From Fidelibacterota bacterium (GTDB lineage Bacteria > Marinisomatota > SORT01): a DNA stretch of 7,340 bases. Shown here piece by piece: positions 92 through 7,239 of the stretch. Below the pieces are notes generated by a model. It was not told the DNA's origin. It saw nothing but the letters and a program-made list of their open reading frames with translations, and ran no database searches. Both the position numbers and the translations under genes were made by a program. The DNA is taken from contig JADFMS010000063.1 in assembly GCA_022563775.1 (NCBI GenBank), positions 1 to 7,340 on the forward strand. Direction: 5' to 3'. The first letter of the stretch is position 1. Each line of letters opens with the position of its first letter.

Positions 92-349
92 TTATTCATA
101 GAAATCTGCATTTATTTGTGTGTATTTCGACTGTCCTTCTGGTAGCTCATCTTCAGCATATATAGCATCAACCGGACAGACAGGTACGCATGCATCACAA
201 TCTATGCATTCATCCGGGTCTATGTATAGCATTGTTACTTCTTCAAACTGAGCTTCTTCTTTAGTTGGATGAATGCAATCTACAGGACACACATCCACAC
301 ATGCTGTGTCTTTTACATCAATACATGTTTCCGTTATTACAAATGTCAT
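92..349 (-). CDS. fdxA: Seven-iron ferredoxin (3Fe-4S plus 4Fe-4S)
   Basis: An 85-residue soluble cytoplasmic ferredoxin that carries low-potential electrons between redox enzymes. The cysteine pattern is that of the Azotobacter FdI/FdxA family. C9, C17 and C58 should bind the 3Fe-4S cluster; C21, C48, C51 and C54 should bind the 4Fe-4S cluster; C25 matches the free cysteine next to that cluster. The non-ligand second cysteine of the usual CxxC start is Val12 here, so conversion of the first site to a plain 4Fe-4S cluster looks unlikely. The stretch between the two binding regions (about residues 26-47, [11 protein letters not shown]...) is longer than in Azotobacter FdI, and the long C-terminal tail of FdI is missing. 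The start is ATG with no clear Shine-Dalgarno site. The gene appears to stand alone or to lead a short minus-strand operon. Confidence 0.9.
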
Positions 350-657: not shown

Positions 658-1281
658 TTAATAATCACTTCTATCTATTACTCCTTGGAGCACGTCACTG
701 CAGCCATCAATACTGGGAAGGGCATGACCGGAACACATTACTTGTAAGGGCAATTGCAGCAGCCCTTTGACATCAAGCCGCCCATCCGCAGAATTAAAGT
801 AGCCAGGTTGAACCGGGAAACGATATGGACCGCCTTCATCGTGACAAATTAGATCACCACAGAACAGCACCCCAGTGCCGTCTGGATGTTCGAACACCAA
901 ATAGCATGTGTGCTGAAATGCGATAGCCTTAATTGCCTGAAAATCGCCCGGTAATCTGTCTTCTTCGCCAAACCAGTGATCGGGCTCTTCGTCTAAACTT
1001 GAACCGGTAGGGGCATAAACAGAAACCCCCAGTTTCTTTCGGAAGCGCCAGGCAGATCGTTGATGATTACCATGCGTTAAAAGAATAGCGCAGACTTCTT
1101 TTATTTCTGCCCAAGTTTCTTCAGTCAATGGTAATGGATCAATCATCACGAGTCCGTCGTTAGTTTTTACAGCAAAAGCATCACTACGGAAGTTGCCTAT
1201 ACGTTCATCTCTGATAGTCCAATGCAGTAACCAAGGAAAGATGTAATCAATTCGGTCAGATTTGGTCTTTGGTTCTGTCAA
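658..1281 (-). CDS. MBL-fold protein with degenerate metal motif
   Basis: A 207-residue protein with the metallo-beta-lactamase fold order. It has an early strand ending VMIDPLP (45-51, like the usual 'liDpg'), the motif 1 region ILLTHGNHQR (66-75), FQHT (122-125), FCGDLI (140-145) and SGH (184-186). H124, D143 and H186 match later metal-ligand positions. In motif 1, where HxHxDH normally supplies two histidines and an Asp-His pair, only H70 (and an off-register H73) remains; N72, Q74 and R75 replace the others. Binding of two zincs is therefore doubtful. There is no signal peptide, so it should be cytoplasmic. The first codon is TTG; the frame is open for about 60 more bases upstream without an ATG or a clear ribosome site. 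The substrate is unknown. It could be a glyoxalase-II-like hydrolase relative or a non-catalytic paralogue. Confidence 0.75.
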   Translation of the reverse strand: MTEPKTKSDRIDYIFPWLLHWTIRDERIGNFRSDAFAVKTNDGLVMIDPLPLTEETWAEIKEVCAILLTHGNHQRSAWRFRKKLGVSVYAPTGSSLDEEPDHWFGEEDRLPGDFQAIKAIAFQHTCYLVFEHPDGTGVLFCGDLICHDEGGPYRFPVQPGYFNSADGRLDVKGLLQLPLQVMCSGHALPSIDGCSDVLQGVIDRSDY

Positions 1282-1478: not shown

Positions 1479-3245
1479 TCAATTAAAAAATTGTTCGATC
1501 TCATCTCTCAGCCCTAAATATTCCCATCGCAAGAGAGCGATCGGCACATTCCCATTCATCATCAAATAATCATGGATTTTGCGAAGATCGAATTTCTCTC
1601 CCTTCCGGATCTTCGCATCACTCAAAAACTTCATTATTTGTAATTTGCCAATCTGATAAGAAATCGCCTGACCGGGATTGTATGCGAAAAACCCCGCTTC
1701 GTCTATTGCTGTCTCTTTATCTAAAGGCACTTTCTTCTCCAAATACTCTCCGGCTTCTTCAATATCAAATTCTCCCACTGCGAGACGAATGTCTACTTCA
1801 ACCCTTAATGCCCTTAGCCTCATAAAACTATAGATGATCTCTCTGCTTCGAGGATTATCATCAAAAAGACCAAATTGAAGCATCATCTCTTCTACGTAAA
1901 AACCAATGCCTTCGTTTGCTCCTGAATCGATATAATGTCTTCGAATAGGATCCGGATTGCTCCAGGAAAGCGCCATTTGAAAATAATGTCCCGGTACTCC
2001 TTCATGAAGGATAAGCGGTCTTGGATCTTGGGCAGATGATAAACTGAAATAAGGCAGATCAGGCGAAGGATCATGGATATATGTTACCGCAGTGTCTTTT
2101 AATCGTGATTCCGAGGTAAGATCATCCATTACTCCCATATACGCGAGAGGCGCTAAATGATCGGGAACTTTTACGCTGATATAATGCGATAAGGATTCAG
2201 GAACAGTCATTATATCATTCTCTTCAAGAAATACTCTTATATTCTCTTCCTCTATTTTTGCTCGTGATAACTGTTCTTCCACATTAGCAAACAATGTCGG
2301 TTCAGGTAGTTTAGCATTTCTTAATTGTTCAAATTCTTCTAATATCACCGAACGGTTCCACTCCAACTCTCCCTGCTCCAACAACTCCTCCGGAGAATAT
2401 GGGATCAAAGCAATATTATCTAAAAAGTATTCATAGCCTTCCCTGCCGACGCTAAAATCATTTGTCATATCGGGATGCTTCATTTTTAACCATTTTGTAT
2501 AATCCTCTAACGCTTTGATGGCATTTTCGCTCGCATGACCTAATACGTCATGTAAGCTTTCCGGGAATAATGGCATTAAAGCATCGTTTGTAGCTTCCAA
2601 CTTTTTCCTGACGTCCTCAAGATTTCCAAGAGCAATATCCGTGAATGATGCAACAGGTTCAGTTAAATTGATTTTAGCATCTTCTACTGTCTGTGAAAAA
2701 GAATTTAATATGGCAATGATATTTGTAGCTCTTATCTCCGTCATCTGCGTACTGATCAATAGTAATTCGAAAACTGCGCCTAATGTCTGTTGAATGTAAA
2801 AATCGGGATTGCGGCTTGGGGCATTCAGCACGGTGAATTCCCAGTTTACCCTTTCCATTGCGGACCTCAGTATCAAATAATCCACCGAATCGGACACGTG
2901 CCAATTTTGTTTTGGAATATCTTCAAGCCTTATTATGAACTCTTTATACTTTGTTTTGATCTCTAAAATTGCTTCCTGCGAATAATCAGGGGCCCAATTG
3001 TCAGGTCGCTCAACTCGAGGGATATCATCGCCTGTCGCGGGCTGAGTCAGAGAACGCCAATTGAAAAATTCTGCCGCAAGTGATTGGAGATCGGCGTTCA
3101 GTTGACTGCCATCCTCATTTAAATATCTCATTTTAGCTGAGTCAGATGAATCATCTGAGCCGCATTGGACAAAAAATATAAATGACAAGAAAACTATGAC
3201 CCTGTTTCTGAACTTCAATTTATTGAAATACAAAGGAATCTCCAT
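1479..3245 (-). CDS. DUF885-family lipoprotein, putative metallopeptidase
   Basis: A 588-residue protein of the DUF885 (PF05960) family, whose members look like zinc metallopeptidases of the gluzincin type. The hallmark is HEGVPGHYFQ at 414-423 (H414, E415, H420), the family's HExxH-like zinc site with an extra residue. It is followed by NEGIGFYVEE (444-453), which can supply the third metal-binding Glu (E445, or E452/E453), and the conserved NPGQAISYQIGK (523-534). The N-terminus is a basic and hydrophobic segment (11-26) followed by FVQC (25-28), a loose lipobox, then a Ser/Asp-rich linker. I therefore infer a lipoprotein exported and anchored at C28, with the peptidase domain in the periplasm or at the cell surface. 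Length is normal for the family. The start is ATG without a visible Shine-Dalgarno site, in a very A+T-rich upstream region. It is transcribed away from the octaheme gene, and its substrate is unknown. Confidence 0.88.
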   Translation of the reverse strand: MEIPLYFNKLKFRNRVIVFLSFIFFVQCGSDDSSDSAKMRYLNEDGSQLNADLQSLAAEFFNWRSLTQPATGDDIPRVERPDNWAPDYSQEAILEIKTKYKEFIIRLEDIPKQNWHVSDSVDYLILRSAMERVNWEFTVLNAPSRNPDFYIQQTLGAVFELLLISTQMTEIRATNIIAILNSFSQTVEDAKINLTEPVASFTDIALGNLEDVRKKLEATNDALMPLFPESLHDVLGHASENAIKALEDYTKWLKMKHPDMTNDFSVGREGYEYFLDNIALIPYSPEELLEQGELEWNRSVILEEFEQLRNAKLPEPTLFANVEEQLSRAKIEEENIRVFLEENDIMTVPESLSHYISVKVPDHLAPLAYMGVMDDLTSESRLKDTAVTYIHDPSPDLPYFSLSSAQDPRPLILHEGVPGHYFQMALSWSNPDPIRRHYIDSGANEGIGFYVEEMMLQFGLFDDNPRSREIIYSFMRLRALRVEVDIRLAVGEFDIEEAGEYLEKKVPLDKETAIDEAGFFAYNPGQAISYQIGKLQIMKFLSDAKIRKGEKFDLRKIHDYLMMNGNVPIALLRWEYLGLRDEIEQFFN

Positions 3246-3421: not shown

Positions 3422-3486
3422 CTCAAAAGCTAATTACAAAAAGCGTTCGTTTTCATGAGTTTTGAGACGGTTGAATTTGTGTTATA
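3422..3486. repeat. Dispersed intergenic repeat, copy upstream of the octaheme gene
   Basis: The 65 bases start CTCAAAAGCTAATT (3422-3435) and end TTGTGTTATA (3477-3486). They align along their full length with 5952-6018: 14 exact bases at the left, CGTTTTC-TGAGTT in the middle, 10 exact bases at the right, and about 70% identity overall by hand count. CTCAAAA (3422-3428) and TTTTGAG (3460-3466) are exact inverted arms, so this copy can fold into a hairpin with a smaller AAAA(G)CG-TT-CGTTTT stem inside. It lies about 205 bases before the octaheme gene. Confidence 0.7.
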
Positions 3487-3531
3487 TGTGGGGTTTTTAA
3501 GCCGGGTTTAGGAACTTTATGGATGGATCAT

Positions 3532-3548
3532 CTTTTGGGGCAAGGTCA
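3532..3548. repeat. 17-bp repeat, copy 2
   Basis: CTTTTGGGGCAAGGTCA, identical to 1373-1389 and in the same orientation. Here it follows the TTTCATGAGTTTTGAGACGG core by about 58 bases, whereas at the other locus it precedes the core by 6 bases. The two blocks therefore behave as separable modules. Confidence 0.75.
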
Positions 3549-3691: not shown

Positions 3692-4933
3692 ATGAACTTT
3701 AAGAATATCTTTATCTCGATTATTTTTGCCACGGCTTTGGTAGTAGCAGCTTTTCTGATTAATCGTGCACGCCCTAAAGTAGAAATATCGCAACCGGGTC
3801 CAGAATATGTGCGAGCTACCGGAAAATGCGCGACGTGTCATCTTAACGAGACATCTGCGATAGTCCATCAATATTCATTCAGTAAACACGCAAAACTAAA
3901 TGTAACTTGCTACGAATGTCATCGTGTCCAGGAAGGTCAGGCAGAGTTCATTCATAAAGGATTTACTCTCGCCCAGGAACTGACAGCTTTAAACTGTAGT
4001 CAATGCCATTCCACTGAATATGACCAATTTCTGAGGAGTCGGCATGGTGCCCCAGCATGGGCTGCCGTTAGTGGATCGGAAGGATTCTCAACTGAGCAGA
4101 TAGCATACGCCGAGAAATATCATCCTGGATCGGTAATGCGTTCCGCAAACCAACTCGCTATTGCCGAAGGCAAAGGTGTCATGGAAAAAGGATGCTTGGC
4201 ATGCCATTCTGTGGGTAAGCCCAACGCGGATGGCAGTATAGGGACATGTACAGCCTGTCATGCCAGGCACTCAACCTCAATAGCTTTGGCGCGGCAGCCG
4301 GAAACTTGCGGACAATGCCATATGGGGCCAGATCACTCACAGTTGGAGATTTATAACGAATCAAAACATGGCGTGCTGTTCGCGTCACAGAGAGATCATT
4401 TCAATCTGGATGCTTCCCCCAAGAAGCTGACTACCAGAGATATGTCTGTCCCGACATGCGCTACATGTCATATGAGTGGGCTTGAAGGTATGAATGTAAC
4501 CCATGACGTAACAGAACGTCTTTCGTGGTGGCTCTTTTCAGCGGTGTCGAAGAAGCGGCCGAATTATAATCTGGGACAAGAAGCTATGAAGAATATATGT
4601 CTCAAATGTCATGCAAAATCACATGTCGAAGAATTTTATCGAGAGGCTGAGATTGTCGTGCACGCAACAAACGAAAAAGTACAGAAATCAGTGGATCTAT
4701 TAGCGGAACTACGTAAGGAAGGTCTTCTTACACCCGAACCGTTTGATGAGTCCATTGAATTTATCGCCTTTGACCTCTGGCATTACTATGGCCGGACTGC
4801 GAAACACGGTGCGTTTATGGGTGGCGCAGATTTTGTACAATGGCATGGAAATTACAAATTGCTCGCTAAAATAGTTGAAATGGAAGAAATAGCTAAAAGT
4901 CTGAGAGGTAAATCTATATCGGAGACGAAGTAG
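3692..4933 (+). CDS. hao: HAO-family octaheme cytochrome c, probably reductive
   Basis: A 413-residue exported cytochrome with exactly eight CxxCH heme sites, with first cysteines at 46, 73, 102, 168, 186, 206, 256 and 303. The spacing and surrounding motifs place it in the hydroxylamine oxidoreductase family: HMGPDH after heme 6, THDV after heme 7, and the C-terminal RTAKHG...GADFVQWHG. In this family heme 4 (CLACH, 168-172) is the catalytic heme, and D214-H215 match the active-site Asp-His pair. The position I align with the cross-linking tyrosine of true HAOs is F381 (ADFVQWHG), so a covalent P460 heme is not expected. Such homologues are thought to reduce hydroxylamine or nitrite, towards ammonium. 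Residues 5-24 form a signal anchor or signal peptide, placing the protein in the periplasm. At 413 residues it is clearly shorter than ammonia-oxidiser HAO (about 570), and it lacks that enzyme's C-terminal membrane helix. It abuts the membrane-protein gene that follows, with no gap, implying one operon. Confidence 0.85.
   Translation: MNFKNIFISIIFATALVVAAFLINRARPKVEISQPGPEYVRATGKCATCHLNETSAIVHQYSFSKHAKLNVTCYECHRVQEGQAEFIHKGFTLAQELTALNCSQCHSTEYDQFLRSRHGAPAWAAVSGSEGFSTEQIAYAEKYHPGSVMRSANQLAIAEGKGVMEKGCLACHSVGKPNADGSIGTCTACHARHSTSIALARQPETCGQCHMGPDHSQLEIYNESKHGVLFASQRDHFNLDASPKKLTTRDMSVPTCATCHMSGLEGMNVTHDVTERLSWWLFSAVSKKRPNYNLGQEAMKNICLKCHAKSHVEEFYREAEIVVHATNEKVQKSVDLLAELRKEGLLTPEPFDESIEFIAFDLWHYYGRTAKHGAFMGGADFVQWHGNYKLLAKIVEMEEIAKSLRGKSISETK
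4921..4924 (+). promoter_or_regulatory. Ribosome binding site fixing the GTG start of the membrane-protein gene
   Basis: GGAG sits inside the last codons of the octaheme gene, nine bases before the GTG at 4934, which directly follows the TAG stop (4931-4933). The arrangement suggests translational coupling of the two genes. Confidence 0.6.
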
Positions 4934-5761
4934 GTGAGTAAGTTGGTTCACCACGGATCACTAATAATTGAGTTATTTGTTGTATCTAATTTAGGCTTCC
5001 TGGCTCTGGATATCTATATCGCTCATTCGGCTAATGCGTTTTCTCATCCCGCCGAATGGATCCCGTTCTATTTTTCATTCAGCGTACCTTTGTTATTGAT
5101 CCTTGAAATGAGCTTGAATTGGTATAGAAAAAAACAACGCTATCGGTTAATTGGATTCTTGGTAGGATACTGCTCCGCCCTCGTTGGGATCGCTGGATTG
5201 CTTTGGCATTTAAACAGTACCTTTTTCGAGTACCAAACTTTAAAAAGCCTCGTGTATACCGCGCCTTTTATAGCTCCTTTAGCATATACGGGCCTGGGTT
5301 GTTTACTAATTATGAATCGCATGGTAAAACAAGATGAGATGGAGTGGAGTCAGTGGTTGATCTTCTTCGGACTTGCGGGATTTTTTGGTAATTTTGTACT
5401 TACCTTGCTCGATCACGCTCAGAACGGATTTTTTCTATTGACAGAATGGATTCCGGTTATAAGTAGCGCTGCAGCCGTAAGTTTCTTAGCAACAGCTTTA
5501 GCAAGAAAATGCTCTCGTCGTTTTTTCGAGCTTTGTATAGCAATAATGGTTGTACAAGTGCTTGTTGGCGTAATTGGTTTTTATTTCCATGCAATCTCTG
5601 TTAACAAAGGCTTATCATCCAGTTTTTTTGAAAATCTTGTTTACACCGCCCCTGTTTTTGCGCCCCTCTTGTTTATAAATTTGGCTTTTCTCTCCGTGTT
5701 AGGACTCCTGGGCGTACGCAACAACCTGATTCAATACGTTGAATTATCTGATGTGGCATAA
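4934..5761 (+). CDS. Eight-helix membrane protein, tandem duplicated, HAO partner
   Basis: I do not recognise a named family. The 275 residues form about eight membrane helices (roughly 9-31, 43-61, 72-92, 105-128, 140-160, 172-190, 198-219 and 236-258) in two homologous four-helix halves. H31...EWIP (41-44) in half one matches H161...EWIP (171-174) in half two at an exact offset of 130. H92 then matches H219, and LVYTAPFIAPL (106-116) matches LVYTAPVFAPL (235-245). Basic loops (RKKQRYR at 65-71, RKCSRR at 191-196) put the helix 2-3 and 6-7 loops in the cytoplasm. That sets all four histidines at the periplasmic face, next to the octaheme protein. I infer a quinol- or heme-binding membrane electron carrier feeding or anchoring the octaheme cytochrome, in place of the NapC-type partner seen elsewhere. 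The start is GTG, directly after the upstream stop. Transport or assembly roles remain possible. Confidence 0.8.
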   Translation: MSKLVHHGSLIIELFVVSNLGFLALDIYIAHSANAFSHPAEWIPFYFSFSVPLLLILEMSLNWYRKKQRYRLIGFLVGYCSALVGIAGLLWHLNSTFFEYQTLKSLVYTAPFIAPLAYTGLGCLLIMNRMVKQDEMEWSQWLIFFGLAGFFGNFVLTLLDHAQNGFFLLTEWIPVISSAAAVSFLATALARKCSRRFFELCIAIMVVQVLVGVIGFYFHAISVNKGLSSSFFENLVYTAPVFAPLLFINLAFLSVLGLLGVRNNLIQYVELSDVA

Positions 5762-5810
5762 CAACTCAATCAAGCGGGCGCTAAAGCGTCTCTGATTTTG
5801 AACGTTATCG
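5756..5810. other. attC-like imperfect inverted repeat at gene end
   Basis: The TAA stop of the membrane-protein gene lies inside GCATAAC, and the element closes with GTTATCG 48 bases on. Arms pair from the outside in: ATAAC (5758-5762) with GTTAT (5804-5808), then TCAATCA (5766-5772) with TGA-TT-TTGA (5793-5801) around a TT bulge, then GGCGC/GCGTC (5777-5781 and 5786-5790, one G-U) around a small loop. The order, the stop codon inside the left box and the TAACAA...TCAAGC and GAACGTTA pieces resemble an integron attC site. However, the right box departs from the GTTRRRY consensus and 55 bp is very short. It could simply be a structured 3' end without a U-tract. Confidence 0.35.
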
Positions 5811-5951: not shown

Positions 5952-6018
5952 CTCAAAAGCTAATTCTCATATGCTCCCGTTTTCGTGAGTTATTGGATAG
6001 CCTGAAAGTTGTGTTATA
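5952..6018. repeat. Dispersed intergenic repeat, copy downstream of the octaheme module
   Basis: Same orientation as the copy at 3422-3486, sharing the left 14 bases CTCAAAAGCTAATT, the TTTC-TGAGT core and the right end TTGTGTTATA. A two-base length difference falls in the right half. The CTCAAAA/TTTTGAG inverted arms of the other copy are degraded here (TTATTGG on the right). It starts 190 bases after the membrane-protein stop. Confidence 0.7.
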
Positions 6019-6051: not shown

Positions 6052-6408
6052 TTAGTTTATAAGATCCTTCTTCACTTCTTCAAACTCTTTTATAGTTATC
6101 TCACCTTTGGCGTATCGTTTCTTCAGTATCTCTAATGCCGAATCACCGAAATTAGGACCAGACCAGCGCCCTTGATCCCGGCCCAAGATAAAATAGAGGA
6201 TAACAGCTAATACTATAATTGGGAATAATGGAAACATCCAGAAAGCTCCCATTCCCATCATATGCCAGGGTCCCGCCCACGTTCCCGCTTCGTGGTTATC
6301 CAAATGATCTCCCGTGATAGATGGAATAATCCAACCTGCTGCTGCTATCAGAACTATTAAAATAATTAGGATTAACAAGATATGATTGTTTTTAATTGAA
6401 CTATTCAA
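6052..6408 (-). CDS. Small SHOCT-domain membrane protein
   Basis: About 118 residues with two membrane helices and a C-terminal SHOCT domain, the short helical ALEILKKRYAKGEITIKEFE pattern (about 92-117 in this numbering). SHOCT domains are common oligomerisation tails on small membrane proteins, and the function is usually unknown. The first helix lies at about 10-29 and the second at about 53-75. Between them is a segment rich in His, Met and Trp (GPWHMMGMGAFWM), which might touch a metal such as copper, but this is only a composition hint. I prefer the TTG at 6406-6408 as start because AGGAG lies six bases before it. A GTG at 6421-6423 would add five residues but has no ribosome site. The gene follows the diheme cytochrome by about 48 bases on the same strand and is probably in its operon. 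Confidence 0.75.
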   Translation of the reverse strand: MNSSIKNNHILLILIILIVLIAAAGWIIPSITGDHLDNHEAGTWAGPWHMMGMGAFWMFPLFPIIVLAVILYFILGRDQGRWSGPNFGDSALEILKKRYAKGEITIKEFEEVKKDLIN

Positions 6409-6414
6409 AATAAT

Positions 6415-6419
6415 CTCCT
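6415..6419 (-). promoter_or_regulatory. Strong Shine-Dalgarno site deciding the SHOCT gene start
   Basis: AGGAG on the minus strand, six bases before the TTG at 6406-6408. If the GTG at 6421-6423 were the start, this site would lie inside the gene, which argues for the TTG. Confidence 0.55.
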
Positions 6420-6456
6420 GCACATAGATTAAATGTACATTGGCTTAGTAATTTCC

Positions 6457-7239
6457 TCATTCATTACTGAGCGAATATACATAGTTCACAAGGTCCCACA
6501 GTTCCTCATCCATATCCTCAAACGCGTCCTTATATGAGGGCATGGGAGTGCCATCTAACCCGGTTACGAGTGTAATATAAATATCTTCCTGGGTGGACCC
6601 TCTGCCGTAATTCTTACTAATCGTCAGGTCTCGGGGGACGGAAATCTTTCCGAAATTATCCTTCAGCTTATTTGCTGATGGTCCGTCACCTTTCCCGGAA
6701 TACCCATGACATGTCCAGCATTCCGCATCTATAAAGAACTGCTTACCTCGAGAAATACTCTCTCTTGTTAGTCGAGGCGGTACACCTACTGTTACCAGTT
6801 CAGGTTTTTCATTGGATTGAAATTTATCTGAGAAAGTTTTGATGTAACTTACAAGCTGCCATCGCTGCTCTTCGGTTAAATCCTTCCACCTTATCATTGA
6901 TGTACCATGAACCCCTTTCGTTATACTTTCATAGAGATCCCAATCTGTGGGGACCGAACCGCTTTCAGTCTGACGAAACTTATAAATCCCTGTGGTGAAA
7001 TCTCTCGGAGGGGGGATGAAATAGTAACTTGCCGGTCCGCCTCCCCTGCCGTCCAATCCATGACAATATGAACAGGTATAATCATAAAGAGTTTTACCCT
7101 TTTTAGTATTCTCCAAATCCTGAGAAAATACGGTAGTTGGGTATGTCAGAATCATTAAAGCCAATATGAATGAGACCTTCTTCACCAAGCGGAAAGGGTA
7201 AACCATATTTTTTAATTTAAAACTGCTATATACATTCAC
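6457..7239 (-). CDS. Periplasmic diheme cytochrome c (two class I domains)
   Basis: A 260-residue exported electron carrier built of two mono-heme cytochrome c domains in tandem. Domain 1 has CSYCH at 56-60 followed by GLDGRGGGPA, with M115 (HGTSMIRW) as likely sixth ligand. Domain 2 has CWTCH at 174-178 followed by GYSGKGDGPSA, with M233 (GTPMPSY). The C-terminal helices of both domains are recognisable (LTEEQRWQLVSYIKTF; MDEELWDLVNYVYSLS). A signal peptide spans about residues 20-39, ending VFS-Q. The first codon is GTG, supported by GGGGA eight bases upstream; an ATG at codon 12 (7204-7206) would give a tidier signal peptide but has no ribosome site. Such cytochromes usually shuttle electrons to or from periplasmic oxidoreductases or terminal reductases. 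Its enzyme partner is not in the window unless it serves the octaheme protein encoded on the opposite strand. The SHOCT gene follows in the same operon. Confidence 0.88.
   Translation of the reverse strand: MNVYSSFKLKNMVYPFRLVKKVSFILALMILTYPTTVFSQDLENTKKGKTLYDYTCSYCHGLDGRGGGPASYYFIPPPRDFTTGIYKFRQTESGSVPTDWDLYESITKGVHGTSMIRWKDLTEEQRWQLVSYIKTFSDKFQSNEKPELVTVGVPPRLTRESISRGKQFFIDAECWTCHGYSGKGDGPSANKLKDNFGKISVPRDLTISKNYGRGSTQEDIYITLVTGLDGTPMPSYKDAFEDMDEELWDLVNYVYSLSNE

Follow-up and report, generated by a model that had tools for sequence, protein, structure and literature searches.

A stretch of 7,340 nucleotides from a Fidelibacterota bacterium (contig JADFMS010000063.1 of assembly GCA_022563775.1, here called the window) carries two abutting genes, which encode an octaheme cytochrome c of the hydroxylamine oxidoreductase (HAO) family and an eight-helix membrane protein of an unnamed family. 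This module is real and widespread, its membrane partner is new, and within the reach of these searches it has not been described before. The most plausible reading, to which a probability of about two thirds can be given, is that the pair forms a minimal membrane-bound respiratory reductase, in which the eight-helix protein would be the quinol-oxidising subunit of the octaheme, with a bis-histidine heme b as the leading guess for its cofactor. An earlier note on this DNA had described an HAO-like octaheme gene abutting its neighbour at 0 bp and had proposed a new type of membrane partner. Both open reading frames (ORFs) and their spacing are as it described, the GTG start codon of the membrane-protein gene following immediately on the TAG stop codon of the octaheme gene in the same frame. 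The new type of partner is supported by the pairing of the two genes across genomes; we infer the quinol chemistry and the contact between the two proteins.

A contig scan with a 24-row alignment of the membrane protein has identified 160 coding loci, and the top 80 of these, the closer half, were fetched. A tblastn search has shown an octaheme homologue directly upstream and on the same strand in all 80 of these loci, and an ORF with at least three CxxCH motifs ends near the start of the membrane-protein gene in 78 of them; in L013 the octaheme match is spread over two frames, and in L040 the contig ends within it. Since the query was the membrane protein without the octaheme, the pairing is not built into the search. 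The gap between the paired genes varies from -38 to +175 nt with a median of 1.5 (start codons estimated), and so the exact 0-bp spacing is not conserved. In scans of four phyla, matches to the membrane protein were detected in 8 of 199 genomes of Planctomycetota and 12 of 199 of Acidobacteriota. The phylum to which L053 belongs (Verrucomicrobia) gave 1 positive among 194 genomes, and that of L001 (Marinimicrobia) gave 6 among 100. These scans include centre genomes already known to be positive, the sole positive of the Verrucomicrobia scan being the centre itself, and their genomes overlap partly with the 80 fetched loci. An octaheme gene adjoins in 23 of the 27 genomes with any membrane-protein match. 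The four unpaired matches are those of G338, which is of a flavoprotein type, G277 and G298, which lie beside efflux-type genes, and G375 (E 9.6e-4), which is probably spurious. The possibility raised in the earlier note, that homologues lie mostly away from octaheme genes, is thus not borne out. The linkage also holds from the octaheme side: an octaheme scoring at least 444 bits is present in 8 Planctomycetota and 8 Acidobacteriota genomes, all 16 of which have the membrane protein adjoining, and the next-best octahemes (332 bits in Planctomycetota and 345 in Acidobacteriota) belong to genomes with no membrane-protein match.

When the other window genes were searched beside the pair in the 80 loci (E 1e-10, many loci being short), only a ferredoxin-like match in L004 was found. 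No other window gene recurs, and so the pair looks like a free-standing cassette. It is found in Marinimicrobia, Planctomycetota, Acidobacteriota, Verrucomicrobia, Zixibacteria, Poribacteria, Gemmatimonadetes and one Bacteroidetes bin, and its carriers include the cultured strain ZRK32 (L047, PMC10945688) as well as two further named strains, ZRK34 and Singulisphaera GP187. One Verrucomicrobia bin has two copies of the pair on a single contig, CAINLR010000113.1 (L030 and L051).

Judged by sequence, the octaheme is an HAO-family member. Its eight CxxCH motifs begin at residues 46, 73, 102, 168, 186, 206, 256 and 303, and it matches PF13447 above the cut-off (E 6.4e-26). All 75 octaheme homologues longer than 380 residues have eight CxxCH motifs as well. 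A profile of 46 relatives finds 4qo5 as the nearest solved chain (3.2e-46), with HAO (4fas, 7.7e-28) and hydrazine dehydrogenase (6hif) next; all three share with the window octaheme the eight CxxCH motifs and the PF13447 match. The entry 4qo5 is recorded as a hypothetical multiheme protein, which we take to be an Ignicoccus octaheme. The fourth heme site of the window protein, CLACH, aligns with the fourth heme site of HAO, presumably the catalytic one, and Asp214-His215, invariant in 46 rows, aligns with the Asp-His pair (VDH) of HAO, which presumably has an active-site role at the catalytic heme; 4qo5 has PDV at this position. The window octaheme has 413 residues and the HAO chain 546, of which nothing is aligned after residue 409, and so the cross-linking tyrosine of HAO, presumably located after that residue, has no visible counterpart. 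One N-terminal hydrophobic segment is found in the window protein and in its relatives. The octaheme would be exported, perhaps anchored by this helix, with CLACH and the Asp-His pair forming the catalytic heme site, and would most likely act in the periplasm as a reductase of nitrite, hydroxylamine or a similar small oxidant, nitrite or hydroxylamine being likely substrates because of the kinship with HAO.

Related octahemes have other membrane partners. The Planctomycetota and Acidobacteriota scans provided 44 sister octaheme loci (L106-L127 and L148-L169). Five sister neighbours were typed by Pfam as cytochrome b, NrfD, COX1 and two NapC/NirT proteins, and the 44 loci were searched with these five and the window membrane protein at E 1e-6. 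Cytochrome b lies beside 17 sister octahemes, a NapC-type protein beside 8, NrfD beside 5 and a COX1-like protein beside 5; none of the searched partners is seen in the short stretch examined in 9 loci, and the eight-helix protein is found in 0 of 44. The earlier note had named NapC-type quinol dehydrogenases or HaoB as the usual partners of such octahemes. That list is incomplete, since bc-type cytochrome b is the commonest partner in this sample. A COX1-like gene lies near sister octahemes L151, L152, L153, L154 and L156, a possible pair of an octaheme and a heme-copper protein.

A maximum-likelihood tree was built from 77 octahemes. Of these, 37 have the new partner and come from the window, three distant loci and 33 of the 75 loci of full length; the other 40 are sisters, four having been omitted for length or heme count; partner labels in the tree are coarser than in the 44-locus search. 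All 37 octahemes with the new partner lie on one side of a branch with support of 100/99, which is present in 100% of 200 bootstrap trees. L164, L111, L105 and L124 form long branches of unsure placement. Thus, the window-type octahemes form a clade separate from the sampled sisters and have their own membrane partner. Our reading of these gene neighbourhoods is that the eight-helix protein stands where other octahemes have a quinone-reactive or otherwise redox-active membrane subunit.

The membrane protein has at least 2869 database homologues and contains no CxxCH motif. Its alignment has 90 rows, consisting of the window protein and 89 of at least 120 homologues, one of the 89 being the window's own database copy. 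The AlphaFold2 model built on this alignment has eight long helices, the fourth of which is broken, with a mean predicted local distance difference test score (pLDDT) of 88.6 and a predicted template modelling score (pTM) of 0.88. The two halves of the protein are homologous (BLASTP E 3e-9, 31% identity over 105 columns; 98.5% probability in a half-versus-half profile comparison), indicating that the internal duplication exceeds chance. In agreement with the earlier note, which had described a duplicated eight-helix protein with no CxxCH site and four predicted periplasmic histidines, His31, His92, His161 and His219 are invariant in 90 of 90 rows, while the remaining three of the seven histidines vary. 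The four lie near helix ends on the side that is predicted to be periplasmic by the positive-inside rule. The Lys plus Arg content per loop is 0.61, 1.14, 0.22 and 0.41 on the histidine side and 1.71, 3.14, 0.76, 2.16 and 1.90 on the opposite side, and so the histidine ends are predicted to be periplasmic and both termini to be inside. The predicted inside loop 130-137 is poor in Lys and Arg and rich in Asp and Glu (2.41) and gives this orientation no support. In helices 3 and 7 the histidine is 1 and 14 degrees, respectively, off the centre of the conserved face, which is lined with glycine, and 0 of 2000 permutations are equally strong; the histidines of helices 1 and 5 are 72 and 122 degrees off the conserved face, with moments that are not significant. 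A periplasmic cluster is made of invariant His, Asp, Asn and Glu residues.

Pfam and NCBIfam scans of the window membrane protein give nothing above the cut-off, and 0 of the 120 homologues listed for it carries a precomputed Pfam domain, so that the clear transporter or assembly family considered as a refutation in the earlier note has not emerged. Weak Pfam matches among the 90 family members are scattered and erratic, include transporter families and involve at most 3 of the 90 for any family. Membership of NapC/NrfH was rejected on the missing CxxCH motif and the absence of a PF03264 match at E 1. Membership of NrfD/PsrC by sequence was rejected in the same way, since the window protein gives no PF03916 match at E 1; NrfD is not among the 25 of 27 Pfam families listed for the 90 members, and comparison locus L110 gives 3.8e-44. 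The NrfD fold is not among the matches listed by Foldseek or VIA, which does not exclude such a fold. Membership of bc-type cytochrome b was rejected since neither PF00033 nor PF13631 matches at E 1, comparison locus L106 giving 9e-57.

The weak match in G338 has revealed a 316-residue relative of the membrane protein, which has at least 3922 database homologues and a precomputed Pfam domain on 0 of the 120 listed. The profile of this family (33 of at least 120 rows) matches the window family with 95.7% probability (E 1e-8, 220 columns) and pairs the four histidines, all of which are invariant in 33 of 33 rows. Glu41 and Glu171 of the window family stand opposite Met and Gln, and His, Pro and Gly are kept. 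Because they are kept where carboxylates are lost, the histidines look like cofactor ligands. A single sequence of the 316-residue family searched against 149 Acidobacteriota genomes matches the octaheme-linked proteins of four genomes (E 1.1e-7 to 4.5e-4) and does not find the octaheme-linked protein of G006. The family occurs in 17 of 100 genomes of the order of G338, and genes for gluconate 2-dehydrogenase subunit 3 (Gluconate_2-dh3) and a GMC flavoprotein lie downstream in 16 of the 17; the seventeenth genome, G434 (L188), has a truncated membrane-protein copy without them. The order membrane protein, subunit 3, GMC is found in all 16 stretches (L200-L215, 11-14 kb, one per genome). No same-strand CxxCH ORF of 90-449 residues is present in 15 of these stretches, and the sixteenth has one of 127 residues about 2 kb away. 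In two genomes (L190 and L191; 190 and 177 residues), a single four-helix unit with both histidines takes the same gene place. Classical gluconate 2-dehydrogenase-type complexes use a cytochrome c subunit.

The unit has a signature consisting of a histidine ending helix 1, [WY]xP at helix 2, GxxGxxxH in helix 3 and P-x3-P at helix 4, which the window protein carries as read from the alignments. Four histidines are readable at matching places in the distant octaheme-linked proteins of L097, L133 and L199 and in L135 and L136. These observations raise the possibility, the odds of which look even, that there is an unnamed superfamily of membrane electron-transfer subunits in which a four-helix unit with two invariant histidines towards the periplasm, single or in tandem, binds a heme b or another metal and serves as a quinone adaptor for an octaheme reductase or a GMC dehydrogenase, replacing NapC, NrfD and cytochrome b or c subunits. 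A further eight-helix branch, in which the four histidines are apparent, lies beside RND-efflux-type genes (L194, 6732-7739, minus strand; L195, 12660-13664, minus strand), and no redox partner for it is seen on these short contigs.

The presence of cytochrome b, NrfD, NapC and COX1-like genes beside sister octahemes, together with a flavoprotein dehydrogenase beside the relatives, strengthens the case for a role as an electron carrier. Two unlike periplasmic redox enzymes, an octaheme and a flavoprotein, have a homologous neighbour, and electron exchange with the quinone pool would fit both, with electrons flowing from quinol to the octaheme in one case and from the flavoprotein to quinone in the other. 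Comparison gives good support to the view that the eight-helix protein functions in the manner of a quinol dehydrogenase subunit, although its sequence places it outside the NapC, NrfD and cytochrome b families. It would be a dedicated membrane subunit in complex with the octaheme, oxidising quinol on the periplasmic side and passing the electrons to the octaheme chain. The two invariant histidines of each four-helix unit, in its first and third helices, most likely hold a cofactor, and as a guess heme b ranks ahead of another metal. Because both histidine sites are predicted to be periplasmic, quinol oxidation would proceed with no net charge transfer across the membrane, as in NapC-type enzymes. 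NapC/NrfH quinol dehydrogenases adjoin sister octahemes as the eight-helix protein adjoins the window octaheme, but their hemes are of the c type. According to the available part of PMC12954380, the anammox Rieske/cytochrome b complex resembles the window pair in combining a membrane protein with an HAO-like octaheme, but no third gene is kept beside the window pair.

An alternative that overlaps with this reading except for the cofactor is a cofactor-free quinol oxidase subunit like NrfD/PsrC, in which quinol would bind at the periplasmic end of the helix bundles, the histidines would take the protons and the closest octaheme heme would receive the electrons directly. PsrC is built of two four-helix bundles, and the window protein has two four-helix units and a periplasmic cluster of invariant residues. 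The polytopic NrfD lies beside some sister octahemes, and the available part of PMC11896075 describes it as quinone-reactive without redox cofactors. The conservation of His, Pro and Gly but not Glu in the flavoprotein-linked family is more like that of cofactor ligands, and the window protein has no NrfD Pfam match, which makes the alternative less likely. The window protein also differs from NrfD in its four invariant histidines and in gene order, its gene lying downstream of the octaheme gene and that of NrfD upstream. Constant linkage by itself would fit equally well a passive membrane anchor or a specific assembly or maturation factor without a role in electron transfer. This is decidedly improbable since the octaheme already has its own N-terminal hydrophobic helix, redox-active membrane genes lie near sister octahemes, and the flavoprotein-linked relatives mostly lack a nearby CxxCH ORF, making a role in heme c assembly unlikely there. 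A transporter or channel for a substrate or product such as nitrite or ammonium, to which the multi-helix fold and the scattered weak transporter matches could point, is hardly credible: these matches are erratic, relatives adjoin a GMC-type dehydrogenase of different chemistry, and the invariant histidines all cluster on one side of the membrane.

The direction of electron flow is a separate question. If the octaheme oxidised hydroxylamine or a similar donor, the eight-helix protein would reduce quinone, and the flavoprotein-linked relatives would indeed have to run from dehydrogenase to quinone. The later part of the oxidative HAO, in which we place the cross-linking tyrosine, finds no counterpart in the profile alignment of the window octaheme, which suggests a flow from quinol to the octaheme. 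The lack of this tyrosine is taken as a mark of nitrite reduction in the available part of PMC5317091. The oxidative direction is therefore unlikely.

According to the available part of PMC9213671, little is settled about the electron supply of HAO-family octahemes outside the nitrifier and anammox lines, and there is debate over their substrates, another HAO-family protein having been proposed to reduce sulfur compounds. Among papers available in part, HAO-like octahemes of Phycisphaerae have been described as possible nitrite reductases with no membrane partner named (PMC11266412), an HAO-family tree forms part of a study of anammox enzymes (PMC12758564), Ignicoccus octahemes have been modelled on HAO (PMC4429474), and a Planctomycetota NrfD-type gene cluster has a mostly five-heme cytochrome (PMC10732223). 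In Deferribacter, a small membrane protein of unknown function lies near Hao (PMC6896113), an octaheme tetrathionate reductase has a cytochrome b nearby (PMC4911364), and the main text on the physiology of strain ZRK32 lacks the words hydroxylamine, octaheme and cytochrome c (PMC10945688). The pair is not described in the available parts of these seven papers or of PMC12954380. It would be a two-gene answer to the question of octaheme electron supply, accessible to expression and testing. Should its histidine pairs bind heme, another family would join the short list of quinone-reactive membrane subunits. Annotators would also be helped to separate reductive octaheme modules from nitrification or anammox genes.

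Table 1. Features of the window, with positions counted from its first nucleotide.
Feature	Position	Strand	Remarks
HAO-family octaheme cytochrome c gene	3692..4933	+	ATG start, 413 aa, eight CxxCH, PF13447 match
N-terminal hydrophobic helix	3692..3769	+	Signal anchor or signal peptide; about residues 1-26
CLACH, fourth heme site	4193..4207	+	Residues 168-172; aligned with fourth heme site of HAO 4fas
Asp214-His215	4331..4336	+	Invariant; aligned with VDH of HAO
GGAG, possible ribosome-binding site	4921..4924	+	For GTG start at 4934; from sequence only
Eight-helix duplicated membrane protein, unnamed family	4934..5761	+	GTG start, 275 aa
First four-helix unit	4955..5323	+	Residues 8-130; AlphaFold2 model and half-versus-half alignments
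His31	5024..5026	+	End of helix 1; equivalent His in 33/33 flavoprotein-linked rows
His92 in GxxGxxxH	5207..5209	+	Helix 3; 1 degree off centre of conserved face
Second four-helix unit	5339..5755	+	Residues 136-274; AlphaFold2 model and half-versus-half alignments
His161	5414..5416	+	Near end of helix 5
His219 in GxxGxxxH	5588..5590	+	Helix 7; 14 degrees off centre of conserved face
Terminator-like hairpin downstream of pair	5776..5791	+	3 in region against 2.3 +/- 1.4 in shuffles, not above chance
Ferredoxin	92-349	-	Ordinary neighbour
Metallo-beta-lactamase-fold protein	658-1281	-	Ordinary neighbour
DUF885 protein	1479-3245	-	Ordinary neighbour
Small membrane protein, C-terminal SHOCT domain	6052-6423	-	PF09851
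c-type cytochrome, two matched stretches	6457-7239	-	PF00034 5.8e-23; convergent with pair

In the 80 relatives, a search at E 1e-10 shows no match to the c-type cytochrome next to the pair. Similar intergenic stretches of 27-40 nt, 75-93% alike, occur at 3422-3461 and 5952-5991 and at 1354-1418 and 3447-3548. They flank the cassette on both sides and appear once further upstream, and may be remnants of a small repeated or mobile element.

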